Assembly: GCA_024180945.1 (NCBI GenBank)
Contig: JAKSGN010000001.1
Location: 310,001 to 374,000, forward strand
Source of the DNA: Macrophomina tecta
Lineage: Eukaryota > Ascomycota > Dothideomycetes > Botryosphaeriales > Botryosphaeriaceae
Length of the DNA stretch: 64,000 nucleotides
Direction of reading: 5' to 3'
The position numbers were made by a program, and so were the translations under genes. Under the pieces are notes generated by a model that was given only the letters and a program-made list of their open reading frames with translations, made no database searches and was not told the DNA's origin. This document shows, in pieces, positions 6,246 to 34,732 of this stretch (the stretch's first letter is position 1; the number at the start of each line of letters is the position of its first letter).

Positions 6246-8095
6246 ACGTATCCCACAAGCGAGCGTGCCACATAAGCGAGTGTGCCACCTTACCAAACCC
6301 AACCCACTTTAAGTACAACTAACTCTGCAACGTCCTGCAAAATCGACTATTTCTAATAGGTACGCTATTCTACAGTAGTTTCCGCACCTTTTTGACATGT
6401 ACGAGAATTATGTCCAGTTTCGCCGCACTGCCCACATCGCCGTCGTTTTCTCGCTGGCCCCTCCGATTGCGCACCACTTTGGCGCGTTTCCCGCGAAATC
6501 TGTTGGTTAACAGCAGCTCCATCGATTAAATACTGCCCCTCCTGAACCGTAAGAGTCCCTCGCTTCTGAATCCGCTTTTTCTGCCGCTTTTTACGTCGCG
6601 TTGCGGCCTCGTTTGCCTTTTGAAGATTCGCGACTTCCGCCTGCAGAAGAACAGCCGAATGCGCCATCATTTGAGCCCCCTTAGCAAGCTGGTTCAGCGC
6701 ATCGTTGATTGGCGTTGGTGAGCTGTTCTGATGCTTTGCAATCCGGTTCCTAATAAGCTCAGTCTGAGAGGCTAATTCAGCTGGGTTGTGCGGTGTTTGA
6801 GCGTCCCAAGTTATGGCCTCTGCCTGCGGGCGTGTCGGCGTCCGAAGCTTGACATCGAGCTTGGAAATCACGGCCTCTGGATCGAGCGGGACCAGTCCTG
6901 CGCCTCGGAACCCGCCTACGATATTCTGCTGCGTAAATGCGGCTTCGAACGCCGTTTTGAACGCAGGCAGAAACTCGAGCTTCGTGATGTGGTTGATGTG
7001 AGATCGCATCAGCTCTTCAACCTGCTTTCCGTACGCCTTCTTGAGAGGCGCAAAACAGCCTACATCGAGCGGCTGGAGGAGATGCGATGAATGCGCAGGC
7101 ATGAAGAGCGTGATGATCTTGCGTTCCTGGCAGAACGCGTCGAATTCGGCCGAATTGTGGCTCGCGTGGCCGTCAAGAATCAGAAGTCGCCATGCTCCAG
7201 TTGTGCGATCCTTTGTGTGCTTTTCGAAGTGCTGCAGCCACTGCAGACCAAGCTCGTTCGTCGTCCAGCCGTTTTCGCTTAATGCGATGACCCAATTGCC
7301 TGGTACGTCGTCGCTGTACCAAGCAGAAAGGTGGTGTTGTCCCTTGAAAATCACGAACGGCGGAATCGCCCAGCCCTCGGCGTTGACTCCCTGGATCACC
7401 GTAACCCACTCGCGATTGCCTGGCTGGACTGATTTGGGTCGAGCGCGTCGCTCCAATGCTGTGACAACCATTCCGGCTGCAATCATGCCCATGAGGAAGC
7501 CGGCTTCATCGAAGTTGTAGATGTCACCGTTCACGATCCCATACTTCGTGATAGTGTTCTGGACGAGCTGAAACCATTGCGTGATAAGCTCTGGGTCCTC
7601 GCATTTAGCTCGCTGATAGTCATACTTTCGATTCAGACGTGTTTTTAGCTCGGGAGTCCGTCTTACGAAGTTGGAGGGCCAGTTCTTGCCAACGGTACCT
7701 CCGGCGCGGTCGGCGAGTAGCTTATTTGCCATACCTTCAACAGCACTTAATCGCGGCGGAAATCCTCGCGAATCTAGATCGAGGACACGTTTGACAAGAA
7801 CTGATTCCTCGATATTAGTAAGCTTTCGAGAGTTGGGCGTGCAATCGCGTCGAGAAGGAATCCTGTCGCGTCGTCGCTTAAGGGTCATCCGATTAACGTT
7901 AAACGTCTTTGCAGCGAGCCGATTGCTTTGAATTTGGCCTTGATCGATAGCTTGCTTCGCTAAAGCTATCTGAGCTTCATGTAAGATGGATTGAGCGTGG
8001 GTTGGCTGATGCATTGTTGGTTGAAGCTAGGGTGTCGCGTTTTCTTGGTTGGGTGGCACACTCGCTTGTGTGGCACGCTCGCTTGTGGGATACGT
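6246..8095 (-). mobile_element. Fot1/pogo-like DNA transposon DT1 (complete)
   Basis: The element is 1850 bp and flanked by TA target duplications (6244-6245, 8096-8097). Both ends start ACGTATCC and carry ~44-bp inverted repeats that differ at one base (a C-to-T in CpA context on the left). Each repeat holds two tandem 17-bp units of the type CACAAGCGAGCGTGCCA. One intact transposase gene lies on the minus strand. It sits directly against RIP-saturated DNA yet is itself GC-balanced, so it probably arrived after that DNA was mutated. Confidence 0.95.
6365..8014 (-). CDS. Fot1/pogo-like transposase (intact), DT1
   Basis: A 549-residue transposase that would bind the element's terminal repeats and catalyse cut-and-paste movement into TA sites. 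The N-terminal ~65 residues form a predicted psq/CENP-B-like helix-turn-helix (RLAAKTFNV, then KRRRDRIPSRR). A second helical CENP-B-type region runs to about 130. The DDE superfamily core has Asp169 (YNFDEAGF), Asp281 (LILDGH) and Asp317 (LLQPLDVG), giving the DD35D spacing typical of Fot1. A basic coiled segment precedes a C-terminal zinc knuckle (RCGQCGETGHNSRTC). There is no intron and no stop. The ATG at 8014 lies shortly inside the right terminal repeat. Its nearest relative here is DT9. It is likely functional, although activity cannot be read from sequence. Confidence 0.95.
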   Translation of the reverse strand: MHQPTHAQSILHEAQIALAKQAIDQGQIQSNRLAAKTFNVNRMTLKRRRDRIPSRRDCTPNSRKLTNIEESVLVKRVLDLDSRGFPPRLSAVEGMANKLLADRAGGTVGKNWPSNFVRRTPELKTRLNRKYDYQRAKCEDPELITQWFQLVQNTITKYGIVNGDIYNFDEAGFLMGMIAAGMVVTALERRARPKSVQPGNREWVTVIQGVNAEGWAIPPFVIFKGQHHLSAWYSDDVPGNWVIALSENGWTTNELGLQWLQHFEKHTKDRTTGAWRLLILDGHASHNSAEFDAFCQERKIITLFMPAHSSHLLQPLDVGCFAPLKKAYGKQVEELMRSHINHITKLEFLPAFKTAFEAAFTQQNIVGGFRGAGLVPLDPEAVISKLDVKLRTPTRPQAEAITWDAQTPHNPAELASQTELIRNRIAKHQNSSPTPINDALNQLAKGAQMMAHSAVLLQAEVANLQKANEAATRRKKRQKKRIQKRGTLTVQEGQYLIDGAAVNQQISRETRQSGAQSEGPARKRRRCGQCGETGHNSRTCQKGAETTVE

Positions 8096-8106
8096 TAAAT
8101 AATATA

Positions 8107-9962
8107 ACGTGGTTGATAACCGAGCTGCGCATACAACCGAGCTGCGCACCCCACCAATGCCGCGCGACTTTGCAGGCTAATATCTCAACACTACAACAAG
8201 CTATTGCAATGCAAAAAGTTTATTTAGAATTTTTAGATTCATTAGTATCTAGCTTGCAGGTACGCAAATTGTGTCCTAGCATACCGCGGCGCCCGCAGCG
8301 CCTTTGTTGTGTCGCACCCCCATCCGTGCGCGCCCTCTTCGAAGACTCCCCACCCTCATCCCGCCCACCTACGTTGCTGGGAGCCATCAATTCAGCTGCC
8401 TCCTCTGCCGTCAACGACCCTCCAGTCTGGATATACTTCCTCTTGCCTGATTTTCGCTTGGTTAGAGTCTTATTGGCCTCCCGCAAGTCAGTCATTTCGG
8501 CGCGCAACAACACCAGTTCGTGTGCCATCGCTATGGTGCCTTTTGTCAGCTGAACCACAGCTTCTTTCAAGGAACTTGGCGAAGAACCTGCAGGAGGCGG
8601 AATCTTATTAAGGACAAAGGCTGATTGGGAGTCTACTTCGTGAAGAGTGCGCGGTGTTTTGGGCTCCCAAGGGGTGGTCTCTAGGGCAGGTGGCGTTGGC
8701 GTACGAAGCTTCACATCAAGCTTGGATAGCACCGCGTCTGGGTCTAGTGGGACTAGCCCAGCGCCTCTAAAGCTTGCAAGGATGTTCTCCTTCTTAAAAA
8801 CCCGGGCGTGAGCTGCCCTGAAGGCTGGGAGGAACTCGGTCTTAGAGATATGGGTGACGTGCCTGCGCGCCAAGGCCGAGATCTCATCACCGTACGCGCG
8901 CTTCAACGGCGAATAGCAACCCACATCAAGTGGCTGCAATAGGTGCGACGCGTGTGGGGGCATACAGAGAGCGATAATCCTGTTCTCCGTGCAGAGATCC
9001 TGGAAATCCTGCGAGTTGTGGCTCTCGTGACCGTCGATTATGAGCAGCCGGTGCGTGCCCACGGTACGCGACTTTGTATGCGCGTTAAAATGCTTCAACC
9101 ACGCCACTCCTAGCTCGTTGGTCGTCCAGCCGTTCTCGGTGACTCCATTAGGCCAGTCTTTAGGCATGAGACCGTCCTAGTACCAGGTGGAGATGTGCTT
9201 CTTGCCTGCGAAGATGATGAAGGGGGGGATCACAGAGCCGTCAGCGCAGATGCACTCAATCGCGGTGGTCCACTCGCGATCGCCTGGCTGCACCAGTTTC
9301 CCTTTGCCGCCGCGCTTTTCTGAGCCTGTAACCACGTACTGCGTCGAGATTACACCCATCATAAAGCCAGTCTCGTCAAAGTTGTAGCTGTCTTCATCCA
9401 GGATGCCGTACTTCGCCTTCATGTTGCGCACCAGCTCGAACCACTTGCCAATCACCTCTGGATCTTCGTTCAAGGCTCGCTGACGATCATAGGAACGTGT
9501 CATCCGAACCTTGAGCGCAGGCGATCGCTTAATGAGGTTATCCACCCAGCGCTTGCCTGTTGGCTTGCCACCCCGCTCTGCTAGCAACCTATCGGCCATT
9601 GCTCGCACAGCAAGCTTCGTAGGCGGAAACCCTCTTGAATCCTGGTCCAATATACGCTCAACTATCACTAGCTCCTCTTCCTTGCTGAGCTTTCGTCCGT
9701 TGGCCTCGCAATCGCGTCGGGGGGTCGCTCCACCACGTCGGCTGCGGAGCGTACTTGGGGGAACGGCGTAGAGGGCCGCAGCGCGTCGCTCGCTTAAAGA
9801 CGCGTTTCGTTTACGAGATTGTATAGCTAGCTTAATTCTCGCTTCGTTAGAAGATGTCAGGGTGTGGTGTTGTGGATGCATCGCGTCTGAAGATCGGTAG
9901 GATGGATTTTGGTGGTGGGGTGCGCAGCTCGGTTGTATGCGCAGCTCGGTTATCAACCACGT
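8107..9962 (-). mobile_element. Fot1/pogo-like DNA transposon DT2 (one nonsense mutation)
   Basis: The element is 1856 bp with TA duplications at 8105-8106 and 9963-9964. The terminal repeats begin ACGTGGTTGATAACCGAG, are perfect for ~46 bp, and contain two tandem units of the type TACAACCGAGCTGCGCA. It lies only 9 bp from DT1 and 18 bp from DT3, so this is a transposon cluster. DT5 and DT6 belong to the same family. Confidence 0.95.
8220..9881 (-). pseudogene. Fot1/pogo-like transposase with one premature stop, DT2
   Basis: A 553-codon transposase frame starting at the ATG at 9881 (MHPQHHTL). A single TAG at 9177-9179 replaces the CAG that encodes Gln in the near-identical DT6 copy (ISTWYQDG). 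That is a CpA-to-TpA change, as RIP makes. The stop falls after the first catalytic Asp (YNFDETGF) and before the second (LIIDGH) and third (QPLDVG), so the truncated product cannot be catalytic. The C-terminal knuckle has changed from RCGRCG to RCGRRG, so one of its cysteines is also lost. The frame extends upstream into the terminal repeat without an ATG. The TTG there is not a credible start. Confidence 0.9.
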
Positions 9963-9980
9963 TATTAGCTATTCTATGTA

Positions 9981-11833
9981 ACGTGTTTCACCACCGAGCC
10001 GTCCAAACCACCGAGCCGTCCACTTCCTCACCAAAAACGCATCGGATGAAAACTCAACACGATGCATCACCACAACGCTATGAAATCATCCCAGAAAACT
10101 CAGTATATTAACCTTGCTATCCAATCTATTGATACCCACGCGTCGCACAGCGAAAGAGCTACCTGTCGCGAGTACCTTGCTCCCCGATCAACCGTACGCG
10201 ACCGACGCGCAGGTGCCATACCACGCGTAGAAGCTGTGCCTAACGGCAAGAAGCTTACCAAACATGAAGAAGGCGCGATTGTCGAGCGTATACTGGACCT
10301 GGATTCGAGAGGGTTTCCGCCCTCCAAGGATATACTACGTGATATGGCCAACAAATTGCTGGCAGAGCGCGACGGGGGTACCGTGGGCAAGAACTAGCCA
10401 GACAGGTTCATCAGCCGCAGAGATGAGCTCAAAACGTGCTGGACTCGCGCGTACGATCGCCAGCGAGCCTTGAACGAGGACCCAGTGGTTATCGAGCGGT
10501 GGTTCGACCTCGTTCGCTCTGTGAAGGAGAAGTACGGCATCCTAGACGAGGATACGTACAACTTTGATGAAACTGGCTTTATGATGGGCGTAATAGGCTC
10601 TCTGCTAGTTATTACAGGCTCTGAAAGGCGCGGAAAACGAAAATTTATCCAGCCAGGCAATCGCGAGTGGACTTCAGTTATTAACGCGGTCAGCGCGCTC
10701 GGTTGGACGATCCCACCCTTTACGATCTTCGCCGGCAAGAACCACATTAACACTTGGTACGAAGACACCTCTGGCATGGAGGACTGGGTTGTTGCTGTCA
10801 GCGCCAACGGCTGGACGACAAATGAGCTTGGAGTGAAGTGGTTAGAGCACTTTAACGCGCATACAAAGTCGCGTACTGTGGGGGTGTACCGGCTGCTCAT
10901 AATCGACGGCCACGAGAGCCACAACTCAATTGAGTTCCAGGATCTGTGCAAGGAGGAGAAGATTATTACCGTCTGTATGCCGTCGCATTCGTCGCACCTC
11001 CTGCAGCCGCTTGATGTGGGCATTTTCTCGCCGTTAAAGCGGGCGTACCGCTCTCAGATCTCAGGCTTGGCGCGCTTGATGGCCACAAAAATCGACAAAC
11101 CAGCCTTCATACAGGCGTACAAGGCGGCTTATTACAAGGTGTTCACAAAGGAGAATATCTGTGCAAGCTTCCGAGGAGCTGGCTTGGTGCCGCTCGACCC
11201 GCAGGTTGTGTTATCGAAGGTTGATGTCAGGCTTCGTACGCCTACACCGCCTGCACCAGAGGCTGTCCCATGGGAATCCAAAACGCCCAGCAATATGCGC
11301 GAATTAGAGGCCCAATCAAGGCTACTTTATCAGCAGATAAGGCAGTATTGCAGCTCCTCACCTACAGAGGCGCGTGGATCGCTTCAATCGCTCGTAAAAG
11401 GCGCGTCATTCATGGTGCACTCTGCTGTGTTAGTACGCGACGAACTCTCTGCCCTTCAAAGGGCCACAGAGGCCGCAAACAAGAAGAAACAGCGTAAAAG
11501 AAAGTACGTACAGAATCGGGGCACGCTAACAATGGTAGACAGCGGTCAGCTATCTAATCCTCAGGGCGCTGGGGGGGCAGAGGGCAGCGAACAGCCCTCT
11601 AAGAAGGCTCGCGCAGAGGGCGCGCAGGGGGCTCAACGGCGCTGTGGGAACTGCGGCAAGACCGGGCACAACAGACGGACTTGTACAGAGGAGGTAACAG
11701 GTACTGAGTAATCTAGGATCGCTACTAGTTTATTGAAATTTTTGTGTTGTGTTGAATAACTTGAGTTCAAAGTGTGATGTTGGTGAGGAAGTGGACGGCT
11801 CGGTGGTTTGGACGGCTCGGTGGTGAAATACGT
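9981..11833 (+). mobile_element. Fot1/pogo-like DNA transposon DT3 (one nonsense mutation)
   Basis: The element is 1853 bp with TA duplications at 9979-9980 and 11834-11835. Its ends begin ACGTGTTTC (left) and ACGTATTTC (right). Each end carries two units of the type CACCACCGAGCCGTCCA. It split an older LTR fragment: the sequence before it (TAGCTATTCTATGTA) and after it (TAAGCTAAATCTAATG...) resemble continuous repeat sequence seen elsewhere in the window. Confidence 0.93.
10062..11711 (+). pseudogene. Fot1/pogo-like transposase with one premature stop, DT3
   Basis: A 549-codon frame (MHHHNAMKSS...) collinear with intact DT4. One TAG at 10395-10397 replaces the Trp of GKNWPDRF. TGG-to-TAG is a CpA-to-TpA change on the opposite strand. 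The stop leaves ~111 N-terminal residues containing the DNA-binding domain alone. Downstream the frame keeps the DDE core (YNFDETGF, LIIDGH, LLQPLDVG) and the zinc knuckle RCGNCGKTGHNRRTC. Compared with DT4, most differences fall in the first ~70 residues. If the short product is made, it could act as a DNA-binding competitor, but this is speculation. Confidence 0.9.
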
Positions 11834-12252
11834 TAAGCTAAATCTAATGTACAAACACGTGATATTCCAACAGCGTCTCTTCGACCCTTAACAAGGCAAC
11901 AAGGGGACCACTTTTATATACTAAAGACAGATGTTACGCGGAGCTCAAAGTATCGAGTTTCGATTATTATTAGAGGCTTTGCGTCGACCCTTCGCTGTTT
12001 GACTAGCAGAACGCGTCATTAAACAGGTCTACCTAAAGGTTAATCTTAGCTCAACCGCTCTACAAAGCAATGTACGCTATTATAACAAATAAACTCTACG
12101 TAGACTGACGGAGGTGTCTTCTCTATATACATCTTACGTATCATCCTTACAGCGGTGAGATTCTAAGACAAGAAAGTCGATCAAGATCCACAGTGTAAAG
12201 CATCCCGGCTATCTGTAGATACAGAAGGGTTCCAAGCCATTACGGACGTCTT
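11834..12252. other. Intergenic; inverted LTR end fragment, then nothing recognised
   Basis: 11834-11872 reads, on the minus strand, as the start of an LTR (TGTTGGAATATCACGTG) and resembles 17505-17560. The remainder up to the F-box pseudogene shows no coding signal. Confidence 0.5.
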
Positions 12253-13328
12253 TTAGCATGTTATAGTATCCCAGGCGTCCAGAACTATAATGATTGGTAC
12301 GATATCGCTCTCTTCTAATCTCTCAAACATAATCTCGAGCCCTAGGTAGCTAATAAGACTGTTCCATCCGCCTCGCAAGGACACTCTAGTAAAGGTAATT
12401 TCTCGTAGCGTCTCAATGTGATTTCTAATAAGGGCTAGTAGAACTGCCTCCTCCGTGTGTCCGCCGTCGATGTATAATCTTCTAAGTCGAGTGGAAAAGG
12501 TGCTGCTCCCACTTCCGCTCCCAATTTCGGGACGGCCAGCACGCGCTAAAGCCCGAGATAGAGTTCCTCCAAGTTTATCAGTACGCGGAGAAGACTCATT
12601 AGATTCGTGGACAGGCTCCTGACTACTATATCCGAGCGACCTCCCGGGGTCCAGAGGTTGAGCTGCAGTACACGTAGCTGTCGAAATAGAATAGAAAGAA
12701 GTACCATACCAGGCCGTGTTATTACTATCGCATCGCAATAGGCTCCTATCCCATGTTGACCCAGCAAGGGTTCGTTTCTGACTATGCGCGGTTGGGCCTG
12801 GCTCGAAGCTACTGCGGCCAAGACGATGGAGAGAGTACGCGTTTATTTAAGGATTACTATAGTCCCGGTCTCTTTTTCCAGCTCGAGGACGCCCCAACTT
12901 CGAACCCCACCTTTGGAGCTAAAGCCTGATACAACGATCTCTACAAGAGACCCCTTCATGGCTATCAGCGCGACTGCGAGCAATGCAGTGTCCTGGCCTC
13001 GCTGTCTAAAGTATATCTACTCTTCGCAGAGCTCTTGAAGCCTAAGACTCTACTCTTTCTTTGCTGTTGATCTGCCACAAGCGAGAGCCTCCGACCCGAT
13101 ACGTAGAGTTTCGACGAAACGGCCAAATCGACCCCTTACACGGCTACATAGAGCGTGGAGTCCATCGTAAGATAACATAAACTGCTTTGTACGAAAGCGT
13201 CGACGGCCGAAATACTCTAAAGACATGTGGTCGAACTGTCTGCATGTGGCTCTGAAGCTGGCTAAATCCGAATCATTGAGAAAACACAATACGTGCCATA
13301 TCAGCTCTGTTGGGAGGCCAAGCGTCAT
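12253..13328 (-). pseudogene. F-box protein gene, decayed
   Basis: The minus strand from the ATG at 13328 encodes an N-terminal F-box: LPTELIWHVLCFLNDSDLASFRATCRQF. F-box proteins recruit substrates to SCF ubiquitin ligases through Skp1. The frame is then broken by TAG at 13050-13052, a second TAG about 33 bases on, and a TAA near 12850. It resumes in the same frame (VLLSILFRQLRVLQLNLW ... NLEELYLGL) until a stop and frameshift near 12546. A +/-1 frame then continues (STRLRRLYIDGG..., RNHIETLREITFTRVSLRGGW) to about 12253. The C-terminal part looks like the leucine-rich, fungal-type F-box tail. The stops are of CAG/TGG-to-TAG or CAA-to-TAA type, in line with mild RIP. An intron cannot explain all the breaks. 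Confidence 0.7.
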
Positions 13329-13795
13329 GATGAGCGATCTCCGCACAAAAGCGAGATGTGCGGCGGATATGGAGGAGATTATACACAGACAATGTAGCTT
13401 AAATAGCACGGCTCTTAGCTTGCTCCCAGGGCTCGTAGCAAACAGTTAATAATTCCAACACGGAAAATCACAAGTTGCTCAATACAAACTTAATATCTCG
13501 TCAATCAAAAGGGTGCAACAAGCAAGCACAGTCAACGCGTAAAATTATATACCACTCGCGCCTTGGTAAAAGACAACATTCAAGAGATAGTAAGGCTATA
13601 ATTATTAAGCGCTCGATTGTTGCGACCCCTGCTTGCTCCACTACCTCCCCAGTAGATGTGTCTTAAGACAGTTTACTTTTGGCGGCGGAATTCGCTCGAA
13701 GTGCTGCTCTTAAAGAGCTAGAGGATTTAGCAGATCAGACAATACTAGAGTGGGGCCGAAAATCCTCCGGGAATCATCGTTTAACGTACTTCATA

Positions 13796-15649
13796 ACGTG
13801 GTTCACCACCGAGCGGCCCGCACCACCGAGCGGCCCACCTCCCCACCAACATCACACTTTGATCTCAAGTTACTCAACACAACACAAAAATTTCAATAAA
13901 CTAGCAGCAATCCGAGATTACTCGGTATCTGTTACCTCCTCTGTACAGCTTCGCCTATTGTGTCCTAGCTTGCCGCAGTTCCCACAGCGCCGTTGAGCCC
14001 CCTGCCCACCCTCTGCGCGTACCTTCTTCGAGGGCTGTTTGCTGCCCTCAACACCCTCAGCGCCCTCAGGATTGCCCAGCTGACCGCCATCCCCCATTAC
14101 TAACGAGCCCTGATCCTGCACGTACTTCCTTTTACGCTGTTTCTTCTTGTTTGCAGCCTCTGTGGCCCTTTGAAGGGCAGAGAGTTCGTCGCGTACTAAC
14201 ACAGCAGAGTGCACCATGAATGACGCGCCCTTTACGAGCGATTGAAGCGATCCACGCGCCTCTGTAGGTGAGGAGCTGCAATACTGCCTTACCTGCTGAT
14301 AAAGTAGCGTTGATTGGGCCTCTAATTCGCGTATATTGCTGGGCGTTTTGGATTCCCATGCGGTAGCCTCTGGTGCAGCCGGTGTAGGCGTACGAAGCCT
14401 GACATCAAGCTTCGATAACACCACCTGCGGGTCGAGCGGCACCAAGCCAGCTCCTCGGAAGCTTGCACAGATATTCTCTTTTGTGAACACCTTGTAATAA
14501 GCTGCCTTGTACGTCTGTATGAAGGCTGGTTTGTCGATTTTTGTGGCCATCAAGCGCGCCAAGCCTGAGATCTGAGAGCGGTACGCCCGCTTTAACGGCG
14601 AGAAAATGCCCACATCAAGCGGCTGCAGGAGGTGCGACGAATGCGACGGCATACAGACGGTAATAATCTTCTCCTCCTTGCACAGATCCTGGGACTCGAT
14701 AGAGTTGTGGCTCTCGTGGCCGTCGATTATGAGCAGCCGGTACACCCCCACAGTGCGCGACTTTGTATGCGCGTTAAAGTGCTCTAACCACTTCACTCCA
14801 AGCTTATTTGTCGTCCAGCCGTTGGCGCTGACAGCAACAACCCAGTCCTCCATGCCAGAGGTGTCTTCGTACCAAGTGTTAATGTGGTTCTTGCCGGCGA
14901 AGATCGTGAAGGGTGGGACCGCCCACCCTTGCGCGATGATCGCGTTAACGACCGTAGTCCACTCGCGATTGCCTGGCTGGATCGCTTTTCGTTTCCCGCG
15001 TCTCTCAGAGCCTGTGGTGGCCAGCTCGGAGCCTATTACACCCATCATAAACCCAGTCTCGTCAAAGTTGTACGTATCCTCGTCTAGGATGCCGTACTTC
15101 TCCTTCACAGAGCGAACGAGGTCGAACCACCGCTCGATAACCACTGGGTCCTCATTCAAGGCTCGCTGGCAATCGTACGCTCGAGTCCAGCAGGTTTTGA
15201 GCTCATCTTTGCGTTTGATGAACCTGTCCGGCCAGTTCTTGCCCACAGTACCCGCGCCTCGCTCTGCCAGCAGCTTATTGGCCATATTACGTAGTATATC
15301 CTTCGAGGGCGGAAATCCTCTTGAATCCAGGTCCAGTATACGTTCGACTATCGCGACCTCTTCGAATCCAGTGAGCTTTTTGCAGTTAGGCTCAACTTCT
15401 GCGCGTGGGAGGCGTCCGTTGCGTCGCGCTTGTACGGTCGATCGGGGTGCGAGATGCTCGCGACAAGCAGCTCGTACGCTAGTAGACGCGTGGGTATCGA
15501 TAGCATGTAGGGCAAGGTTGATATACCGAGATTTTTGAGATAATTCAGTACTGTTGTGGTGATGCATCGCGTTGAGTTGTTGTCTGACGCGTGTTTTGGT
15601 GGGGAGGTGGCCCGCTCGCTGGGGTGGCCCGCTCGGTGGTGAACCACGT
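13796..15649 (-). mobile_element. Fot1/pogo-like DNA transposon DT4 (complete)
   Basis: The element is 1854 bp with TA duplications at 13794-13795 and 15650-15651. Its ends are ACGTGGTTCACCACC. Units are CACCACCGAGCGGCCCG and the same ending in A on the left, against GAGCGGGCCA-type units on the right, so the variable half differs slightly between ends. The transposase is intact on the minus strand. It sits inside the coiled-coil ORF. Confidence 0.95.
13918..15567 (-). CDS. Fot1/pogo-like transposase (intact), DT4
   Basis: A 549-residue cut-and-paste transposase. An N-terminal helix-turn-helix (about 1-65) is followed by a CENP-B-like helical region and a DDE core with Asp169 (YNFDETGF), Asp282 (LIIDGH) and Asp318 (LLQPLDVG), again DD35D. 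A basic KKKQRKRK segment and a zinc knuckle RCGNCGKLGHNRRSC close the protein. It is nearly identical to DT3 from about residue 72 on, except for a patch around 180-217, but clearly divergent before residue 70. The ATG at 15567 starts MHHHNSTEL. There are no stops or frameshifts, so it may be a functional copy. Confidence 0.95.
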   Translation of the reverse strand: MHHHNSTELSQKSRYINLALHAIDTHASTSVRAACREHLAPRSTVQARRNGRLPRAEVEPNCKKLTGFEEVAIVERILDLDSRGFPPSKDILRNMANKLLAERGAGTVGKNWPDRFIKRKDELKTCWTRAYDCQRALNEDPVVIERWFDLVRSVKEKYGILDEDTYNFDETGFMMGVIGSELATTGSERRGKRKAIQPGNREWTTVVNAIIAQGWAVPPFTIFAGKNHINTWYEDTSGMEDWVVAVSANGWTTNKLGVKWLEHFNAHTKSRTVGVYRLLIIDGHESHNSIESQDLCKEEKIITVCMPSHSSHLLQPLDVGIFSPLKRAYRSQISGLARLMATKIDKPAFIQTYKAAYYKVFTKENICASFRGAGLVPLDPQVVLSKLDVRLRTPTPAAPEATAWESKTPSNIRELEAQSTLLYQQVRQYCSSSPTEARGSLQSLVKGASFMVHSAVLVRDELSALQRATEAANKKKQRKRKYVQDQGSLVMGDGGQLGNPEGAEGVEGSKQPSKKVRAEGGQGAQRRCGNCGKLGHNRRSCTEEVTDTE

Positions 15650-15708
15650 TATGGGATAAGACTAAGGAACGCCATCGCCTACCAGTCCTTGTGGAGTCTG
15701 TTAATTTG

Positions 15709-23408: not shown

Positions 23409-23514
23409 TCATGGCCTCCGTCCACGACGGGTCTGATGGGTCGGGAGCCATCTAAATGCCCTAAGAGGGTGTTTTTGGGGAGGAATCTGGAGATTGGACG
23501 TGTAATGATCACCG

Positions 23515-23980: not shown

Positions 23981-25829
23981 ACGTGGTTGATAACCGAGCT
24001 GCGCATACAACCGAGCTGCGCACCCCACCACCAAAATCCATCCTACCTACCTTCAAACGCGATGCATCCACAACACCACACACTGACATCTTCTAACGAA
24101 GCGAGAATTAAGCTAGCTATACAATCTCGTAAACGAAACGCGTCTTTAAGCGAGCGACGCGCTGCGGCCCTCTACGCCGTTCCCCCAAGTACGCTCCGCA
24201 GCCGACGCGGTGGAGCGACCCCCCGACGCGATTGCGAGGCCAACGGGCGAAAGCTCAGCAAGGAAGAGGAGCTAGTGATAGTTGAGCGTATATTGGACCA
24301 GGATTTAAGAGGGTTTCCGCCTACGAAGCTTGCTGTGCGAGCAATGGCCGATAGGTTGCTAGCAGAGCGGGGTGGCAAGCCAACAGGCAAGCGCTGGGTG
24401 GATAACCTCATTAAGCGATCGCCTGCGCTCAGGGTTCGGATGACACGTTCCTATGATCGCCAGCGAGCCTTGAACGAAGATCCAGAGGTGATTGGCAGGT
24501 GGTTCGAGCTGGTGCGCAATATAAAGGCGAAGTATGGCATCCTTGATGAAGACAGCTACAACTTTGACGAGACTGGCTTTATGATGGGTGTAATCTCGAC
24601 GCGGTACGTGGTTACAGGCTCAGAAGAACGCTGCGGCAAAGCGAAATTAGTGCAGCCAGGCGATCGCGAGTGGACCACCGCGATTGAGTGTATCTGTGCC
24701 GACGGCTCTGTGATTCCCCCCTTCATCATCTTCGCAGGCAAGAAGCACATCTCCACCTGGTACCAGGACGGCCTCGTGCCCGAGGATTGGCCTATTGGAG
24801 TCACCGAGAACGGCTGGACGACCAACGAGCTCAGGTCAGTGGTTAAAGCATTTTTAACGCGCATACAAAGTCGTACCGTGGGCACGCACCGGCTGCTCAT
24901 AATCGACGATCACGAGAGCCACAACTCCAGGATTTCCAGGATCTCTGTAGGGAGAACAGGATTATCGCTCTGTGCCCCCACTACGCGTCACCTATTGCAG
25001 CCACTTGATGTGGGTTGCTATTCGCCGTTAGCGAAGCGCGTACGGTGATGAGATCTCGGCAACGGCGCGCAGGCACGTCACCCATATCTCTAAGACCGAG
25101 TTCCTCCCAGCCTTCAGTCAGGGCAGCTCACGCCCAGGTTTTTAAGAAGGAGAACATCCTTGCAAGCTTTTAGAGGCGCTGGGCTGAATCACTGAACCCA
25201 GACGCGGTGCTATCAAGCTTGATGAAGCTTCGTACGCCAACGCCACCTGCCCTAGAGACCACCCCTTGGGAGCCCAAAACACCGCGCACTCTTCACGAAG
25301 TAGACTTCCAATCAGCCTTTGTCCTTAATAAGATTCCGCCTCCTGCAGGTTCTTCGCCAAGTTTCTTGAAAGAAGCTGTGGTTCAGCTAACAAAAGGCAC
25401 TATAGCGATGGCACACGAACTGGTGTTGTTGCGCGCCGAAATCACAGACTTGCGGGAGGCCAATAAGACTCTAACCAAGCGGAAATCAGGCAAGAGGAAG
25501 TATATCCAGACTAGAGGGTCGTTGACGGCAGAGGAGGCAGCTGAATTGATGGCTCCTAGCAACGTAGGTGGGCGGGATGAGGGTGGGGAGTCTTCGAAGA
25601 GGGCGCGCACGGGTGGGGATGCGACACAACAAAGGCGCTGCGGGCGCTGCGGTATGCTAGGACACAATTTGCGTACCTGCAAGCTAGATACTAATGAATT
25701 TAAAAATTCTAAATAAACTTGTTGCATTGCAATAGCTTGTTGTAGTGTTGAGATATTAGCCTGCAAAGTCGCGCGGCATTGGTAGGGTGCGCAGCTCGGT
25801 TGTATGCGCAGCTCGGTTATCAACCACGT
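23981..25829 (+). mobile_element. Fot1/pogo-like DNA transposon DT5 (DT2 family, broken)
   Basis: The element has TA duplications at 23979-23980 and 25830-25831, and terminal repeats identical in type to DT2 and DT6 (ACGTGGTTGATAACCGAG, units TACAACCGAGCTGCGCA). At 1849 bp it is 7 bp shorter than DT6, all from small indels in the middle. Confidence 0.93.
24062..25716 (+). pseudogene. Fot1/pogo-like transposase with clustered indels, DT5
   Basis: The frame starts at the ATG at 24062 (MHPQHHTL) and matches DT6 almost perfectly to about 24830 and again from about 25240 to the stop at 25714-25716. Between these points at least ten 1-4 base insertions, deletions and substitutions break the second and third catalytic blocks (LIIDDHESHNS, LLQPLDVGCYSPLAK). 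The first catalytic Asp (YNFDETGF) and the zinc knuckle RCGRCGMLGHNLRTC are intact. RIP does not make indels, so either this is a recombination or repair scar or it is a low-quality stretch of consensus. Confidence 0.88.
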
Positions 25830-26314
25830 TATTCGAGGAATTATATAAATAGCTTATAATTTAAGCTTAAAACACCTAGAATTAGGTATATAATTAATTT
25901 TATATAGATGTGAATTACTTTATTATAATTCGTAACTTTTAACAGCTTTATAACGCTAAGAATTAGTTAAATACTTAAGCATATATAGCTGCGAATAGCC
26001 TTAAGAGTTTGGTGTTGCGACCTCTATAAGCCTATTTGGCACTAAAACTCTCTACTAAACGAACCGGCATCTACTCTACGAGCACATAAGGAGACCTTGA
26101 AACACGGAATATCCAATAGGTAGGGAATTTATGATTGTAATTGACTACAAAGGTCTTATCTACTTATAACGAACATGACTTATACATAAAAGGATTGGCC
26201 AACGGTTGTCCAGACGAGTGTGGTGGTTTGACCGTTAGGGTGGCGCGAGATACTTAGTGCGGTCATCGCCTGAAGTTGCTGCGCCGCTCCCTCCTCTCCT
26301 CCGCGTCGTAACCA
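25830..26314. other. AT-rich intergenic DNA
   Basis: No coding signal or recognised repeat. It forms the 3' flank of the monooxygenase gene. Confidence 0.5.
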
Positions 26315-28192: not shown

Positions 28193-29060
28193 GATTGGTA
28201 ATGGCGTGTGCGGATGAAGTTGAGAAACAAGAGTTATATGCTTACTTTTGCTACGAATCTTCTTCTGCTGCGAGCAAGTAATATATATACGTAGGAAGTC
28301 TTACTATCACACTGTCTTAGTTCTCTTAGTACAGTGCATTGTCTGACGGTTTTACTACCATCAATAATGAACCCTCTTCGATTCCGGCTCTTAACGGACG
28401 CACCCGGACAAATCCGGGTATAACCAAGTATTGTCTGGTCTGTGAGACTTACGCACGGACGAGATCCACTTACGAGTCTCCTATTGCGGACAAGGCCCAG
28501 TATTTTAGGCATACAAACTCGTAGGCCCGTGCTCGTTAGGCCGAAGACCCGTCTTAGAAGGGAGAAACCCTGTTCCCAACCGTAGGCGGCAATCCTTAAT
28601 TTACCGGCGAAGTCAACAATTTAACCGTCATTACCCCTTATACGCCTGTGGGGCGCTGATTTGCCGGCAAAATCACCTTAATCAGGAGGCCTTTTTTACA
28701 ATAATAGAGAATTAAGTTATATTATTCCATACTATTAAGTATTACGGCGTAGCCTCTATAGTAGAGATAAGAAAAATTAGAAAGAAAAAAAAAATTAGAA
28801 AGAATTAAATAGAAAAAGTTATTATATACGGGATAATACAGCATGCACACTCTTGGCGTGCAATGTAACACTTTGCACACTTGCGTAGCGAAATACACAC
28901 CTATTTTACCAAGATATTACTTTCCCTTAAAAATCTTAACCATGGTAATAAATCATAATAAAATACCTTCCGGAATATTAAATTTATACCTTGCTCTATG
29001 GTTAGAAGGGTTAGTGGTTACTAGTTAGATAGGTTAGGGTTAGTATTTTAGGTAGGAGTA
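28193..29060. other. Upstream region of the monooxygenase, then AT-rich repeat DNA
   Basis: 28193-28690 has no recognised gene and includes short self-complementary stretches (for example CCGGACAAATCCGG). 28690-29060 is AT-rich and contains the second copy (28841-28901) of the ~60-bp repeat found at 23762-23822. Confidence 0.55.
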
Positions 29061-30916
29061 ACGTGGTTGATAACCGAGCTGCGCATACAACCGAGCTGCG
29101 CACCCTACCAATGCCGCGCGACTTTGCAGGCTAATATCTCAACACTACAACAAGCTATTGCAATGCAACAAGTTTATTTAGAATTTTTAAATTCATTAGT
29201 ATCTAGCTTGCAGGTACGCAAATTGTGTCCTAGCATACCGCAGCGCCCGCAGCGCCTTTGTTGTGTCGCATCCCCACCCGTGCGCGCCCTCTTCGAAGAC
29301 TCCCCACCCTCATCCCGCCCACCTACGTTGCTAGGAGCCATCAATTCAGCTGCCTCCTCTGCCGTCAACGACCCTCTAGTCTGGATATACTTCCTCTTGC
29401 CTGATTTCCGCTTGGTTAGAGTCTTATTGGCCTCCCGCAAGTCTGTGATTTCGGCGCGCAACAACACCAGTTCGTGTGCCATCGCTATAGTGCCTTTTGT
29501 TAGCTGAACCACAGCTTCTTTCAAGGAACTTGGCGAAGAACCTGCAGGAGGCGGAATCTTATTAAGGACAAAGGCTGATTGGAAGTCTACTTCGTGAAGA
29601 GTGCGCGGTGTTTTGGGCTCCCAAGGGGTGGTCTCTAGGGCAGGTGGCGTTGGCGTACGAAGCTTCACATCAAGCTTGGATAGCACCGCGTCTGGGTCTA
29701 GTGGGACTAGCCCAGCGCCTCTAAAGCTTGCAAGGATGTTCTCCTTCTTAAAAACCCGGTCGTGAGCTGCCCTGAAGGCTGGGAGGAACTCGGTCTTAGA
29801 GATATGGGTGACGTGCCTGCGCGCCAAGGCCGAGATCTCATCACCGTACGCGCGCTTCAACGGCGAATAGCAACCCACATCAAGTGGCTGCAATAGGTGC
29901 GACGCGTGTGGGGGCATACAGAGAGCGATAATCCTGTTCTCCCTACAGAGATCCTGGAAATCCTGCGAGTTGTGGCTCTCGTGACCGTCGATTATGAGCA
30001 GCCGGTGCGTGCCCACGGTACGCGACTTTGTATGCGCGTTAAAATGCTTTAACCACTCGACTCCGAGCTCGTTGGTCGTCCAGCCGTTCTCGGTGACTCC
30101 AATAGGCCAATCCTCGGGCACGAGGCCGTCCTGGTACCAGGTGGAGATGTGCTTCTTGCCTGCGAAGATGATGAAGGGGGGAATCACAGAGCCGTCGGCA
30201 CAGATACACTCAATCGCGGTGGTCCACTCGCGATCGCCTGGCTGCACTAATTTCGCTTTGCCGCAGCGTTCTTCTGAGCCTGTAACCACGTACCGCGTCG
30301 AGATTACACCCATCATAAAGCCAGTCTCGTCAAAGTTGTAGCTGTCTTCATCAAGGATGCCATACTTCGCCTTTATATTGCGCACCAGCTCGAACCACCT
30401 GCCAATCACCTCTGGATCTTCGTTCAAGGCTCGCTGGCGATCATAGGAACGTGTCATCCGAACCCTGAGCGCAGGCGATCGCTTAATGAGGTTATCCACC
30501 CAGCGCTTGCCTGTTGGCTTGCCACCCCGCTCTGCTAGCAACCTATCGGCCATTGCTCGCACAGCAAGCTTCGTAGGCGGAAACCCTCTTAAATCCTGGT
30601 CCAATATACGCTCAACTATCACTAGCTCCTCTTCCTTGCTGAGCTTTCGCCCGTTGGCCTCGCAATCGCGTCGGGGGGTCGCTCCACCGCGTCGGCTGCG
30701 GAGCGCACTTGGGGGAACGGCGTAGAGGGCCGCAGCGCGTCGCTCGCTTAAAGACGCGTTTCGTTTACGAGATTGTATAGCTAGCTTAATTCTCGCTTCG
30801 TTAGAAGATGTCAGTGTGTGGTGTTGTGGATGCATCGCGTTTGAAGGTAGGTAGGATGGATTTTGGTGGTGGGGTGCGCAGCTCGGTTGTATGCGCAGCT
30901 CGGTTATCAACCACGT
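29061..30916 (-). mobile_element. Fot1/pogo-like DNA transposon DT6 (complete, DT2 family)
   Basis: The element is 1856 bp with TA at 29059-29060 and 30917-30918. Its terminal repeats are as in DT2 and perfect. The right-hand TA also serves as the left-hand TA of DT7, so the two elements abut exactly. The transposase is intact on the minus strand. Confidence 0.95.
29174..30835 (-). CDS. Fot1/pogo-like transposase (intact), DT6
   Basis: A 553-residue transposase starting at the ATG at 30835 (MHPQHHTL). The helix-turn-helix N-terminus includes RRAAALYAVPPS and a basic RSRRGGATPRR. The DDE core has Asp169 (YNFDETGF), Asp283 (LIIDGH) and Asp319 (LLQPLDVG). A KRKSGKRKYIQ basic stretch precedes the zinc knuckle RCGRCGMLGHNLRTC. 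It is the only uninterrupted member of the DT2/DT5/DT6 family here and so could mobilise the other two, whose terminal repeats are the same. Open frame upstream of 30835 runs into the terminal repeat without an ATG. Confidence 0.95.
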   Translation of the reverse strand: MHPQHHTLTSSNEARIKLAIQSRKRNASLSERRAAALYAVPPSALRSRRGGATPRRDCEANGRKLSKEEELVIVERILDQDLRGFPPTKLAVRAMADRLLAERGGKPTGKRWVDNLIKRSPALRVRMTRSYDRQRALNEDPEVIGRWFELVRNIKAKYGILDEDSYNFDETGFMMGVISTRYVVTGSEERCGKAKLVQPGDREWTTAIECICADGSVIPPFIIFAGKKHISTWYQDGLVPEDWPIGVTENGWTTNELGVEWLKHFNAHTKSRTVGTHRLLIIDGHESHNSQDFQDLCRENRIIALCMPPHASHLLQPLDVGCYSPLKRAYGDEISALARRHVTHISKTEFLPAFRAAHDRVFKKENILASFRGAGLVPLDPDAVLSKLDVKLRTPTPPALETTPWEPKTPRTLHEVDFQSAFVLNKIPPPAGSSPSSLKEAVVQLTKGTIAMAHELVLLRAEITDLREANKTLTKRKSGKRKYIQTRGSLTAEEAAELMAPSNVGGRDEGGESSKRARTGGDATQQRRCGRCGMLGHNLRTCKLDTNEFKNSK

Positions 30917-30918
30917 TA

Positions 30919-32397
30919 ACGTGGTTTATCAGTGAGCGACGCATATCAGTAAGCGACGCACTTTTCCTTGGCGCTACCACCCTTCATCTTCCACACGCGT
31001 TTTTTCCACAACAAAGCATGCAAGTCCAAACAACCGAAGCACGAATTATCTTAGCCATCGAAGCTATCCGAACATCCCGAAAACTCAGCCGCCGAGCCGC
31101 CGCAAAGGTCTATAACGTGCCCGAAGCAGCGCTCCGCCATAGAATGAACGGCAGAACCGCAAAAACCGATTCCCGGCCCGCTATTCAGAATTTGACCGAG
31201 ATCGAGGAAGATGTGATCGTTCAATATATCTTAGACCTAGATTCGCGAGGATTTCCACCCTCGATCGAAGACCTGCGTGCAATGGCTGATCACATCCTCG
31301 CGTCGCGGGGCGCGCGACGCGTCGGAAAACTCTGGCCAAACCGCTTCATTAAGCGACGAGAAGAGCTGCGCACGCGTTTTTCTCGCGCCTACGACTTCCA
31401 GCGAGCCCTTTGCGAAGATCCCCAGCCTATAAGCGAATGGTTCAGCCTGTTCTCGAACATGCGGGCCAAATACGGCATCCAGGACTGCGATTTATACAAC
31501 TTCGACGAGACCGGCTTTATGATGGGCATGATCTGCTCTTCTATGGTTGTTACCCGTGCCGATCGACGCGGAAAAAGCAAGACAATTCAGCCTGGCAATC
31601 GAGAATGGGCGACCGCCATTACCTGTGTCAGTGGTGACGGCTTTGACGTGCCCCCGTTTTTGCTAGTTCAAGGCCAGTACCACCAAGGTCGAGTTCTTTT
31701 TGGCATTTCGCACAGCATATAATGCTACAATGACCAAAGGAAACATTGCCGGTGGTTTTCAGGGTGCCGGATTTATTCCATTCGACCCGGAAGCAGTCAC
31801 TTCTAAGCTAGATGTCAAGTTACGGACGCCAACACCCATAGGCGCCCTAAACACCAACGCCGACCTTTGGGTCTCCCAGACGCCACACAACCCGACCGAG
31901 GCTATTTCGCAGTCCGAGCTAGTTAAATCTCGGATTAGTGGTCACCAAGGAAGCTCCCCGACGCCTATTTTTTCCGCTGTCAAGCATATGGCGAAGGGTT
32001 TGGAGGGAATGGCCCATACGGTAACCCTTTTGACCGAGGAGAACCGCGCGCTTCGAAAGGCAAATGAGGCACTTAGCAAGCGCCGGAGGGCTAAAAAAAC
32101 ACGTGTTCGTAATGGAGGCGCACTAACCACGGAAGATGCGCGAGATATTCTAGCTCAGAAGAATGCTAAGGAGCAGGTAGCACGCGATAAGCGCGAAAAT
32201 CGGGATGGCGGCGGAGAGAGGCCGGCGAGTATACGGCGATGCGGCACCTGCGGCGAGGTCGGGCATAATGCACGAACATGCCAGGTCGAAGAAGTAATGT
32301 CCGATGTCCATAGTTCCGACTAATTTTAATTAATTTAAGCGATGTTGGCTGCGCAATTCGGGTGAAGAGTGGTGGCGCCAAGGAAAAGTGCGTCGCT
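30919..32397 (+). mobile_element. Fot1/pogo-like DNA transposon DT7 (internally deleted, right end truncated)
   Basis: The left end ACGTGGTTTATCAGTGAGCG starts right after the TA shared with DT6. Its two units are TATCAGTGAGCGACGCA and the same with AGTAAGC. The right inverted repeat is cut after its inner unit (GGAAAAGTGCGTCGCT, near 32397), exactly at a TA where DT8 begins. The outer ~30 bp expected beyond was not found on the far side of DT8. The interior lacks roughly 350 bp compared with relatives. Confidence 0.85.
31018..32323 (+). pseudogene. Fot1/pogo-like transposase with internal deletion, DT7
   Basis: Frame 1 starts at the ATG at 31018 (MQVQTTEARII) and keeps the helix-turn-helix, CENP-B-like region and first catalytic Asp (YNFDETGF). 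Near 31675-31690 it jumps, out of frame, to sequence matching the region after the third catalytic Asp (FRTAYNATMTKGNIAGG...), which ends with the zinc knuckle RCGTCGEVGHNARTC at 32323. The missing part would contain LILDGH and QPLDVG, so the element is non-autonomous. It is a distinct subfamily from DT1-DT6. No RIP-type stop is evident. Confidence 0.88.
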
Positions 32398-32510
32398 TAA
32401 CGTAGTTAAGCTGCGCACCCTAGAAGCTGCGCACCCCTAGTAGCTGCGCACCCCACCAAAATCAACATAGTTTCTTCAACTCACGATATCTCAACAACCT
32501 ATCACCAAAA

Positions 32511-32847
32511 TGGCTAATCGTGAAGCTGCAATTGAAAGCGCAATCACCGATCTTCGTTCAAACGTTTACCCATCTATCCGAGCTGCTGGGAAGGCGTACA
32601 GAATCCCTGAAAGCACCCTTCGCTCACGCGTCAATGGAACCGCGTCACGACGCGATAAAAGCCACGAACACCAACAAAGACTCATATAGTTGTAGGAGGA
32701 GTTTCTTGCTGACTAGATACTTGAAGAAGATGCACGCGGATACCCTTCTTCGCACGCGCGTGCACGAGAAATGGCCTCACGAATCCTACACTTAAATGGT
32801 AATAACTAACCTCTCGGACGAAAATGGATATCCAGCTTTATAACGCG
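32511..32847 (+). pseudogene. Transposase N-terminus, RIP-mutated, DT8
   Basis: From the ATG at 32511 the frame reads MANREAAIESAITDLRSNV, then a helix-turn-helix (AGKAYRIPESTLRSRVNG). It then meets stops TAG, TAG, TAG and TAA at positions where relatives would have Gln or Trp (LI*L*EEFLAD*ILEEDARGYP). The reading continues to KWISSFITRN, where DT9 is inserted. This is the CENP-B-like N-terminal half of a different Fot1/pogo subfamily. No catalytic domain follows on the other side of DT9. Confidence 0.75.
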
Positions 32848-32849
32848 TA

Positions 32850-34732
32850 ACGTATCCCACAAGCGAGCGGTGCACACAAGCGAGCGGTGCACACAAGCGA
32901 GCGGTGCACACAAGCGAGCGGTGCACCTCATTAACAAAACGCGTCTCCTCAGCTTTTACCACTATGCAACAACCACAACATGTTCAATCTTCTTTATATG
33001 AAGCTCACCTACTCCTAGCATCACAAGCCATCGATCAAACCCACATTCAAAGCACTCGGGGTGCTGCGAGGGCGTATCGCGTCGCCGCAATAACGCTTAC
33101 GCGACGACGCGACGGGATCCTCTCGCGACGTGATTGCACGCCTAATTCTCGAAAACTCACGCCTACCGAGGAATCTGTGATTGTTCAACGCATTCTTGAC
33201 CTAGATTCGCGAGGATTTCCGCCGCGATTGAGTGCTGTTAAAGATATGGCAAATAAGCTACTCGCCGACCGCGCCGAAGGTACCGTTGGTAAGAACTGGC
33301 CCTCCAACTTCGTGAAACGGACCCCCGGGCTTAAAACGCGTCTGAATCGCAAGTACGACTACTAGCGAGCGAAATGCGAGGACCCAGAGCTTATCGCGCA
33401 ATGGTTCGAGCTCGTCCGGAACACTATCGCGAAGTACGGGATCGTGGACGGAGACATGTACAACTTCGACGAAGCTGGCTTTCTTATGGGCATGATCGCA
33501 GCTGGAATGGTTGTCACGGCATCGGAGCGACGCGCTAGACCCAAATCAGTCCAGCCAGGCAATCGCGAGTGGGTTACGGTGGTCTAGGGAGTTAACGCCG
33601 AGGGCTGGGCGATTCCGCCGTTCGTGATTTTCAAGGGACAACACCACCTTTCTGCCTGGTACAGCGACGACGTACCACGCGATTGGGTCATCGCACTGAG
33701 CGAAAACGGCTGGACGACAAATGAGCTTGGTCTGCAATGGCTGCAGCACTTCGAAAAGCACACAAAGAATCGCACAACTGGAGTATGGCGACTTTTGATT
33801 CTTGACGGCCACGCGAGCCACAATTCGGCCGAATTCGACGCGTTCTGCCAGGAACGCAAGATCATTACGCTCTGCATGCCTGCGCATTTATCGCATCTCC
33901 TTTAGCCGCTCGATGTAGGCTGTTTTGCGCCTCTTAAGAAGGCGTACGGAAAGCAGGTTGAAGAGCTAATGCGATCCCACATCAACCACATCACGAAGCT
34001 CGAGTTTCTGCCTGCGTTTAAAACGGCGTTCGAAGCCGCATTCACGCAGCAGAATATCGTAGGCGGGTTCCGAGGCGCAGGACTGGTTCCGCTCGATCCA
34101 GAGGCCGTGATTTCCAAGCTCGATGTCAAGCTTCGGACGCCGACACGCCCGCAGGCAGAGGCCATAACTTGGGACGCTCAAACACCGCACAACCCAGCTG
34201 AATTAGCCTCTCAGACTGAGCTTATTAGGAACCGGATTGCAAAGCATCAGAACAGCTCACCAACGCCAATCAACGATGCGCTGAACCAGCTTGCTAAGGG
34301 GGCTTAAATGATGGCGCATTCGGCTGTTCTTCTGCAGGCGGAAGTCGCGAATCTTCAAAAGGCAAACGAGGCCGCAACGCGACGTAAAAAGCGGCAGAAA
34401 AAGCGGATTCAGAAGCGAGGGACTCTTACGGTTCAGGAGGGGCAGTATTTAATCGATGGAGCTGCTGTTAACCAGCAGATTTCGCAGGAAACGCGCCAAA
34501 GTGGTGCGCGATCGTATGGGGCTGCGACGAAGAAACGGCGATGTGGGCAATGCGGCGAGGCTGGACACAATTCTCGCACATGTCAAAAAGATGCGGAAAA
34601 CGCTGTAGAGTAGAATGTATATTATAGATAGTCGACTTTATAAGGCGTTGGAGAGTTATTCGTCCTTTAAGCGATTAAGGTTTAATGGGGTGCACCGCTC
34701 GCTTGTGTGCACCGCTCGCTTGTGGGATACGT
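32850..34732 (+). mobile_element. Fot1/pogo-like DNA transposon DT9 (DT1 relative, RIP-mutated, nested in DT8)
   Basis: The element is 1883 bp with TA at 32848-32849 and 34733-34734. It begins ACGTATCCCACAAGCGAGC. The left end has four tandem copies of CACAAGCGAGCGGTGCA while the right end has two, which accounts for the extra ~34 bp over DT1. It is inserted into the transposase remnant of DT8. Confidence 0.95.
32964..34613 (+). pseudogene. Fot1/pogo-like transposase with four RIP-type stops, DT9
   Basis: A 549-codon frame (MQQPQHVQSS...) collinear with DT1. Stops lie at 33363-33365, 33585-33587 and 33903-33905 (TAG) and 34305-34307 (TAA). DT1 has Gln at all four positions, so each is CAG-to-TAG or CAA-to-TAA in CpA context. 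From residue ~66 to the end the reading is about 95% identical to DT1 by eye. In the first 60 residues it differs at about 23 positions. All three catalytic Asp and the knuckle RCGQCGEAGHNSRTC remain readable. It is inactive as written. Confidence 0.93.

Follow-up and report, generated by a model that had tools for sequence, protein, structure and literature searches.

In CENP-B, a domesticated protein with one specificity, two tandem helix-turn-helix (HTH) units lie on one 17-bp site, and in the 434 and lambda repressors bases are read by the start of helix 2 together with recognition-helix positions 1, 2, and 6. Among transposons, the part of the published Fot account drawn on here gives DD35D for almost all Fot and Fot-like elements, terminal inverted repeats (TIRs) of 40–60 bp, and a target duplication that is mostly TAA, with TA only in FotC and FotD (PMC7386202). 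It is a long-standing question how specificity can shift jointly in a transposase and in its terminal repeats, when altering one without the other should stop movement. Here, we analyze nine transposons (DT1–DT9) in a 64,000-nucleotide stretch of the fungus Macrophomina tecta (GenBank assembly GCA_024180945.1, contig JAKSGN010000001.1, positions 310,001 to 374,000; hereafter, the window), with genome-wide counts taken from the 54.1-Mb source assembly of 37 contigs; L-numbers denote fetched loci, and nearly all element types come from this one genome. Comparison of their sequences makes it very probable that the first HTH of these Fot-type transposases carries a recognition code, and that the middle of the gene has been homogenized while the ends stayed matched.

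Head residues and terminal-unit bases

Full copies of the DT elements are ~1.85 kb long and encode a single transposase of ~549 amino acids (aa), with an N-terminal HTH head, a Tc5-type HTH, a DDE_1 domain, and then a C-terminal CCHC knuckle; judged by these features, they are Fot-type transposons of the pogo superfamily. Asp 281 and Asp 317, with 35 residues between them (DD35D), were invariant in 14 aligned rows. In the four proteins scanned, DDE_1 was found in three (the exception, DT7, is an N-terminal fragment), HTH_Tnp_Tc5 passed its cutoff in DT4 and DT7, fell short of it in DT1, and was absent from DT6, and HTH_psq exceeded its cutoff in DT7 only. Named relatives of the transposase, among 120 of 3716 related proteins, were all fungal. 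The inverted ends span at least 42 bp (an 8-bp tip plus two inverted 17-bp units), each end as a rule carrying a tandem pair of such units, built as NNN-core-n1..n7, in which the core varies by subfamily (AAGCGAG, CACCGAG, AACCGAG, CAGTGAG/CAGTAAG, or AAGCATG). Core doublets numbered 303 + 283 genome-wide, against only 6 + 10 for the reversed pattern.

The arrangement is illustrated by DT1 (6246..8095, minus strand; edges hand-counted from the units), a TA-flanked transposon of GTGCCA type with tip ACGTATCC and two units per end. Its left units (outer CGTGCCA, inner TGTGCCA) lie at 8054..8087 (minus) and its right units (CGTGCCA, TGTGCCA) at 6254..6287 (plus), and its 549-aa transposase, which has the full domain layout, occupies 6365..8014 (minus). 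The head with the first HTH (codons 1–65; 7820..8014, minus) was modelled by AlphaFold2 (AF2) with helices at residues 5–24, 31–37, and 42–49 and block confidence (pLDDT) >90 for residues 11–50. In the covariation scans that follow, codon 42 (Arg; 7889..7891, minus) is the partner of unit base n5 (C) and codon 47 (Arg; 7874..7876, minus) that of n2 (G).

For the main scan, each of 418 variable protein columns was compared with each unit base across 28 element types, every combination of head and unit being represented once (DT8 plus 27 types drawn from the fetched loci and the window elements); types whose listed units disagreed at a position were excluded from that position's scan, the chimeras L048, L054, L073, L075, and L090 were not used as representatives, and L049 entered with its left unit. 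Residue 47 held the full information on n2 (1.41/1.41 bits, z 12.2, runner-up 6.7) and residue 42 that on n5 (1.58/1.58 bits, z 11.0, runner-up 4.4), each ranking first of 418, and because all columns share one phylogeny, the rank of a column is a control in itself. Leave-one-out prediction was right in 26/26 cases for n2 and 24/24 for n5, counting those of the 28 types that share the residue with another type. At residue 47, Arg, His, or Ala accompanies G, Asp accompanies C, and Ser or Asn accompanies T at n2; at residue 42, Arg accompanies C, Glu, Pro, or Ala accompanies G, His or Ile accompanies A, and Tyr or Asn accompanies T at n5. Residue 32 also explained n6 fully in the main scan (z 8.0; 3/3 independent pairs), a link that first appeared once DT8 and L055 had joined the scan after being checked.

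Right-end units, 1.7 kb from the head, gave the same result when scanned alone in 26 types (L091 being taken from the chimeric L090): columns 47 and 42 again came first, of 416, with full information, whereas columns of the adjacent C-terminal region reached at best z 5.4 and 2.7. On a control tree of residues 131–500 from 27 types, n2 and residue 47 changed seven times each, and n5 and residue 42 ten times each. Independent pairs agreed for n5=C with Arg42 in 8/8 cases (p 0.008), for n2=C with Asp47 in 5/5 (p 0.06, the minimum possible with five), and for n5=G with Glu, Pro, or Ala42 in 5/5. An earlier note on this stretch had proposed that the head is coupled to its binding site; the scans strongly support this, narrow it to single residues and bases, and show that unit type varies with head type.

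Types outside the derivation were also compared with the code. DT8, a remnant split by DT9, has Glu42, Ser47, and the unit CTGCGCA, and L055 (core AAGCATG; its unit was missed at first) has Arg42, Arg47, and CGGTCCA, both as predicted. L103, a foreign contig in a bacterial bin (57% identical), has Glu42, Asp47, and Arg32 with units TCACGCA and TCGCGCA, matching the prediction at n2, n5, and n6. L102, an IMG/VR contig (42% identity), pairs Thr47 with T at n2 (Thr is uncoded but fits Ser/Asn by analogy) and Leu42, which is not among the residues of the code, with C at n5. Strict predictions, in which the residue was already in the code, were right at n2 in 3/3, at n5 in 3/3, and at n6 in 1/2; those for L102 and L103 were not blind, head and upstream frames having been viewed together. 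L102, filed as viral, contains two Fot-like transposase matches in opposite directions. Among 122 stretches listed by a 14-base unit-doublet search of IMG/VR, only these two contigs, which other searches had yielded, encode a relative (E 1e-5); a second alignment scan returned the same contig as L102, and neither plasmid and phage sequence searches nor a TIR tip pattern search gave a match. Within the genome, one unit type outside the 28, TCGGACA, occurs at C12:405498, C14:747253, and C14:782937; its bases would, by the code, go with Asp47 and with His or Ile as residue 42. L056 and L060, from distant clades, share the common unit CCGTCCA and similar helices (PRTTLRDRRAG, PRSTVRDRRAG) next to different cores, a likeness due to either convergence or a small conversion patch.

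At the level of single copies, a machine pick of units covered 72 elements with a readable head (other DT1 copies, copies on the contig C4 described below, and L101 were omitted, and the head of L069 was unreadable). Full agreement with the code was obtained at left ends in 65/70 (n2), 64/70 (n5), and 63/70 (n6), and at right ends in 57/66, 55/66, and 56/66, respectively. Inspection by eye resolved the 20 flagged rows into eight real cases and 12 stray or damaged picks, namely a register artefact in DT7 and L079–L081, unrelated matches in L053, L058, L070, L076, L092, and L093, a neighbor's unit in L067, and, in L055, a unit that lacks one base. Units were picked at both ends of 65 elements, 54 of which carry the same unit at n2–n6; the other 11 comprise stray picks (L058, L092, L093), L096, DT4, and six unequal-end chimeras (L048, L049, L054, L073, L075, L090), of which L048 and L049 nonetheless follow the code at n2, n5, and n6. 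Large groups with a representative read (DT1, L061, and DT6 types) had matched ends among the matches listed.

Several observations weigh against this code or limit its reach. The control tree was built from recombining genes, and one dataset both found the code and grouped its residues (R/H/A, S/N, E/P/A, H/I, Y/N), of which only Arg42–C, Arg47–G, and Asp47–C are backed by many types. Arg47 alone agreed with n2=G in 3/5 independent pairs, with no difference in two, because His and Ala also accompany G. No one column explains n1, n3, or n4, and the residue 32–n6 link is tentative, since that residue falls to fourth rank with right ends alone (z 3.0); L102 is a miss here, with Asn32 beside C where A was expected. 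True mismatches remain at n2 in L078 (a stop-rich copy), at n5 in L038, L054, and L096 (with units well upstream that perhaps belong to another element), and at n6 in L073, L075, and L090; L047 carries an uncoded Pro32, and one right unit of L053 is off at n6. Chimeras need not be immobile, since the L049 and L073 types each have at least two copies of equal score, although the two L073-type copies lie beside the same neighbor and are perhaps a segmental duplication. Finally, although 1hlv (CENP-B on its box) ranked first when the PDB was searched twice by structure with the modelled head, the match was not significant (E 0.11) and its root-mean-square deviation was large. CENP-B was not found when the PDB was searched with a sequence profile of the head, which gave two matches to AVR3A11, set aside as chance (E 1.1–1.2).

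Mosaic genes and competing explanations

Two pairs in the window, DT1/DT9 and DT3/DT4, had been described in the earlier note as near-identical catalytic bodies behind divergent heads. DT9 (32850..34732, plus strand; edges hand-counted) is of CGGTGCA type with Ala42 and Arg47, four left and two right units spanning 32858–34724, and an open reading frame (ORF) that starts at 32964 (plus) and holds four in-frame stops. DT3 (9981..11833, plus; edges hand-counted) is of CCGTCCA type with Arg42, Asp47, core CACCGAG, an ORF from 10062, and one in-frame stop; DT4 (13804..15641, minus; ORF 13918–15567) has Arg42 and Ala47, left units CGGGCCA, and right units CGGCCCG/CGGCCCA. The 23 differing head residues reported for DT1/DT9 hold when counted over the first 65, and the remainder is 93% rather than 95% identical (34/474 compared residues differ outside the first 65 codons). 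The DT3/DT4 heads differ, as claimed, by about a third (22/65), but at 90% identity (46/476) their remainder is not nearly identical, and the patch noted near residues 180–217 is confirmed by DNA identities of 80 and 84% in windows at nucleotides (nt) 525–675. As also noted, terminal units differ within both pairs (DT1 GTGCCA vs DT9 GGTGCA; DT3 CGTCCA vs GGCCCA at the DT4 right end), and DT2, DT5, and DT6 have identical units and almost identical heads. The ends of DT4 are themselves unequal (left GGGCCA, right GGCCCG/GGCCCA). The last 49 residues have diverged as well (10/49 in DT1/DT9, 8/48 in DT3/DT4), and identity of the 3′ non-coding tails is 69% and 88%, respectively.

Synonymous divergence (dS) is far from uniform in either pair. 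Along the gene it runs 0.78 (codons 1–65), 0.33, 0.40, 0.14, 0.16, 0.01 (371–500), and 0.38 (501–549) for DT1/DT9, and 0.63 (codons 1–65), 0.49, 0.34, 0.13, 0.04 (301–370), 0.11, and 0.46 for DT3/DT4. Third-position heterogeneity reached the floor of 20,000 permutations (p=0.00005) in both, as in DT1-L035, L041-L048, L034-L048, DT4-L059, and L060-DT4, with region edges picked after windowed identity had been viewed; same-clade controls were uniform (DT1-L041 p 0.07, DT1-L039 0.25, DT1-L046 0.46). A longest-run test gave p ≤0.0006 for L034-L048, for DT4-L059, and for DT1 against DT9 (p 0.0004), L035, L042, L034, and L054, weaker values for L041-L048 (0.017), DT3-L059 (0.023), and L039-L041 (0.032), and nonsignificant ones for DT3-DT4 (0.083) and L034-L049 (0.075), and was negative in the three control pairs (0.90 to 0.98). 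Because synonymous divergence is present at the head and the C-terminal end and nearly vanishes mid-gene, the pattern is mostly one of mosaicism: the middle of the gene appears to have been exchanged between subfamilies, with both ends mostly retaining their identity. Rather than fast-evolving heads on a quiet body, the DT pairs are old subfamilies in which head and ends match one another and recombination has evened out the bodies. The exchange of modules suggested earlier is in this sense supported but runs mostly the reverse way, the catalytic middle being homogenized while the head with the left end and the C-terminus with the right end are kept. Nor, at synonymous sites, is the head a hotspot relative to the original divergence.

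Trees of four gene segments also conflict with one another. L048 groups with L041 in nt 0–225, with the L039/L041 clade in nt 225–1050, and with L034 in nt 1050–1500 and 1500–1740, making it a two-parent recombinant with an L041-like 5′ part and an L034-like 3′ part; L038 groups with L034 in nt 0–225 and with L049 in nt 1050–1500 and 1500–1740. DT4 is close to L059 until ~nt 1200 and to L058 past that point, and its right units equal the left units of L058 (the machine unit pick found no right units in L058), so that DT4 resembles a fusion in which an L059-like 5′ part is followed by a 3′ part like that of L058, a make-up that fits its unequal ends.

A rather improbable alternative is that a foreign head module was placed on a shared catalytic body through one junction near codon 65–70, where the earlier note had looked for a breakpoint. 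Third-position differences between DT1 and DT9, which run 31/65, 25/98, 6/65, 7/51, 1/85, and 10/21 along the gene, do drop between codons 1–75 and 76–200 (the first two values), and L048 is a genuine two-parent recombinant, though with a junction far from codon 70. But divergence goes on stepping down until about codon 371 and climbs once more at codons 501–549 and in the DT1/DT9 tail, breakpoints fall at several places along the gene, and both ends, not the head alone, keep their identity. Matches starting only at residues 34–91 were considered as head swaps and rejected: the copies L065, L066, L068, and L042 carry frameshifts, the frame changes near codon 87–89 in L048 and L049 (which are chimeras on other grounds), and in L050 extra sequence interrupts the gene.

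Positive selection on the head, with the rest inherited ordinarily, is quite improbable. In three pairs without visible recombination, the ratio of nonsynonymous to synonymous divergence (dN/dS) of the head was 0.30 (DT1-L041), 0.34 (DT1-L039), and 0.45 (DT1-L046), above the 0.09–0.20 of most other regions (exceptions being the C-terminal tail at 0.20–0.42 and codons 66–130 of DT1-L046 at 0.33), and head columns 41, 42, 43, 46, and 47 vary beside nearly fixed columns 44, 45, 48, and 51. Yet dN/dS stays below 1, and selection gives no account of dS values of 0.78 and 0.01 within one gene; the rapid selection suggested earlier is thus unsupported as such, the raised ratio pointing instead to weaker constraint or change at few sites.

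Very improbable is linkage through shared ancestry alone, by which head and left unit, adjoining within ~200 bp, would be inherited together and correlate without contact, as the TGAGCCA-type right units that chimeras L048 and L049 carry like L034/L038, with which their 3′ segments group, might suggest, since single columns of 418 fully explain n2 and n5 where neighbors in the same head fail, the same columns come out on top for the right ends, at 1.7 kb from the head, and residue–base pairs recur across catalytic clades (e.g., Asp47–C in L060, L056, L082, and L100).

Under a recognition code with matched ends and a homogenized middle, the transposase would bind the tandem 17-bp units at each end, its first HTH reading the variable n1–n7 after a core such as AAGCGAG, with residue 47 (position 6 of the recognition helix) setting n2 and residue 42 (position 1) setting n5, and its second HTH probably reading the core. 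Subfamilies with different codes would coexist, recombination or gene conversion would homogenize mid-gene, and products keeping head, left units, and right units matched would go on. With the middle homogenized and the matched ends kept, two members would come to resemble a single catalytic body fitted with different heads. We infer that residues 42 and 47 contact n5 and n2, that mismatched chimeras are poorly mobile, and that subfamilies are kept apart by the code. We give an even chance to a broader view, in which the code is compact and evolvable, a new subfamily is founded by joint change of a head residue and of the unit base at either end, and conversion spreads the middle across subfamilies that do not cross-mobilize, leaving many independent transposons with one shared, evolving enzyme body.

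Other elements and copies

The remaining window elements are DT2 (8115..9954, minus; CTGCGCA type, Pro42, Ser47), DT5 (23989..25821, plus; CTGCGCA type), DT6 (29069..30908, minus; CTGCGCA type, transposase intact), the left part of DT7 (30927..32400, right limit approximate, plus; CGACGCA type, Glu42, His47, core CAGTGAG/CAGTAAG), and the left part of DT8 (32408..32849, plus; CTGCGCA type, Glu42, Ser47). DT8 is broken by DT9, which sits inside it (32408–34956), with DT8 left units and head before it and right units (34921–34956) after it. At 50468–50502, a doublet CGGGTCA/TGGGTCA has no transposase head recognized within the next 830 bases.

Contig C4 (50,234 bases) repeats DT1–DT6 and DT9 in window order, as a duplicated or alternative contig, and differs from the window beyond the right end of DT1; its copies of DT1 and DT9 (L024, L037) were either counted in the comparison of tips and flanks among DT1 copies or left out. 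In that comparison, with the window copy and the C4 duplicate counted, the tip ACGTATCC and TA on both sides were found in 25/25 near-identical DT1 copies, though the flanking TA could belong to the element end itself. Among scored genome matches to the DT1 transposase, 22/79 are full-length with the top score, again counting the window copy and its C4 duplicate. Elsewhere, copies with 28 to 44 in-frame stops, nearly all TAG or TAA (L078, C31:2241679, C9:45175, C37:427380), show a pattern like that of repeat-induced point mutation, and CGGCGCA ends paired ~1.1 kb apart at C21:133618–134723 and three similar C21 places are probable non-autonomous elements of the L050 subfamily.

Comparison with known systems

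With more than two dozen natural head–unit types, across which a pair of residues names a pair of bases, this genome makes the question of joint specificity change testable by simple binding assays. The code also provides a rule by which non-autonomous elements can be matched with their transposase, and it suggests a way for transposon subfamilies to become mutually independent.

The elements resemble the Fot family, as described in the part of the account considered here, in DD35D, HTH_Tnp_Tc5 and HTH_psq, DDE_1, inverted ends of at least 42 bp, and fungal relatives, and differ from most Fot elements, with their TAA, in the TA flanks of DT1; tandem 17-bp units, subfamily-specific unit bases, and residue–base coupling go unmentioned in that part (PMC7386202). 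In a limited literature search, no residue-to-base code for Fot or pogo transposases was announced in titles or abstract openings; the element family is known, and we did not find the code or the pattern of kept ends and shuffled middle described in that search. The tandem HTH arrangement (predicted here from sequence and the AF2 model) and the 17-bp unit would parallel those of CENP-B, but where that domesticated protein has one specificity, these transposons have many head–unit types. In the same way, residues 42, 47, and perhaps 32 compare with the reading positions of the 434 and lambda repressors, unlike which the transposons have many specificities in one genome, with protein and site together in each self-propagating copy.

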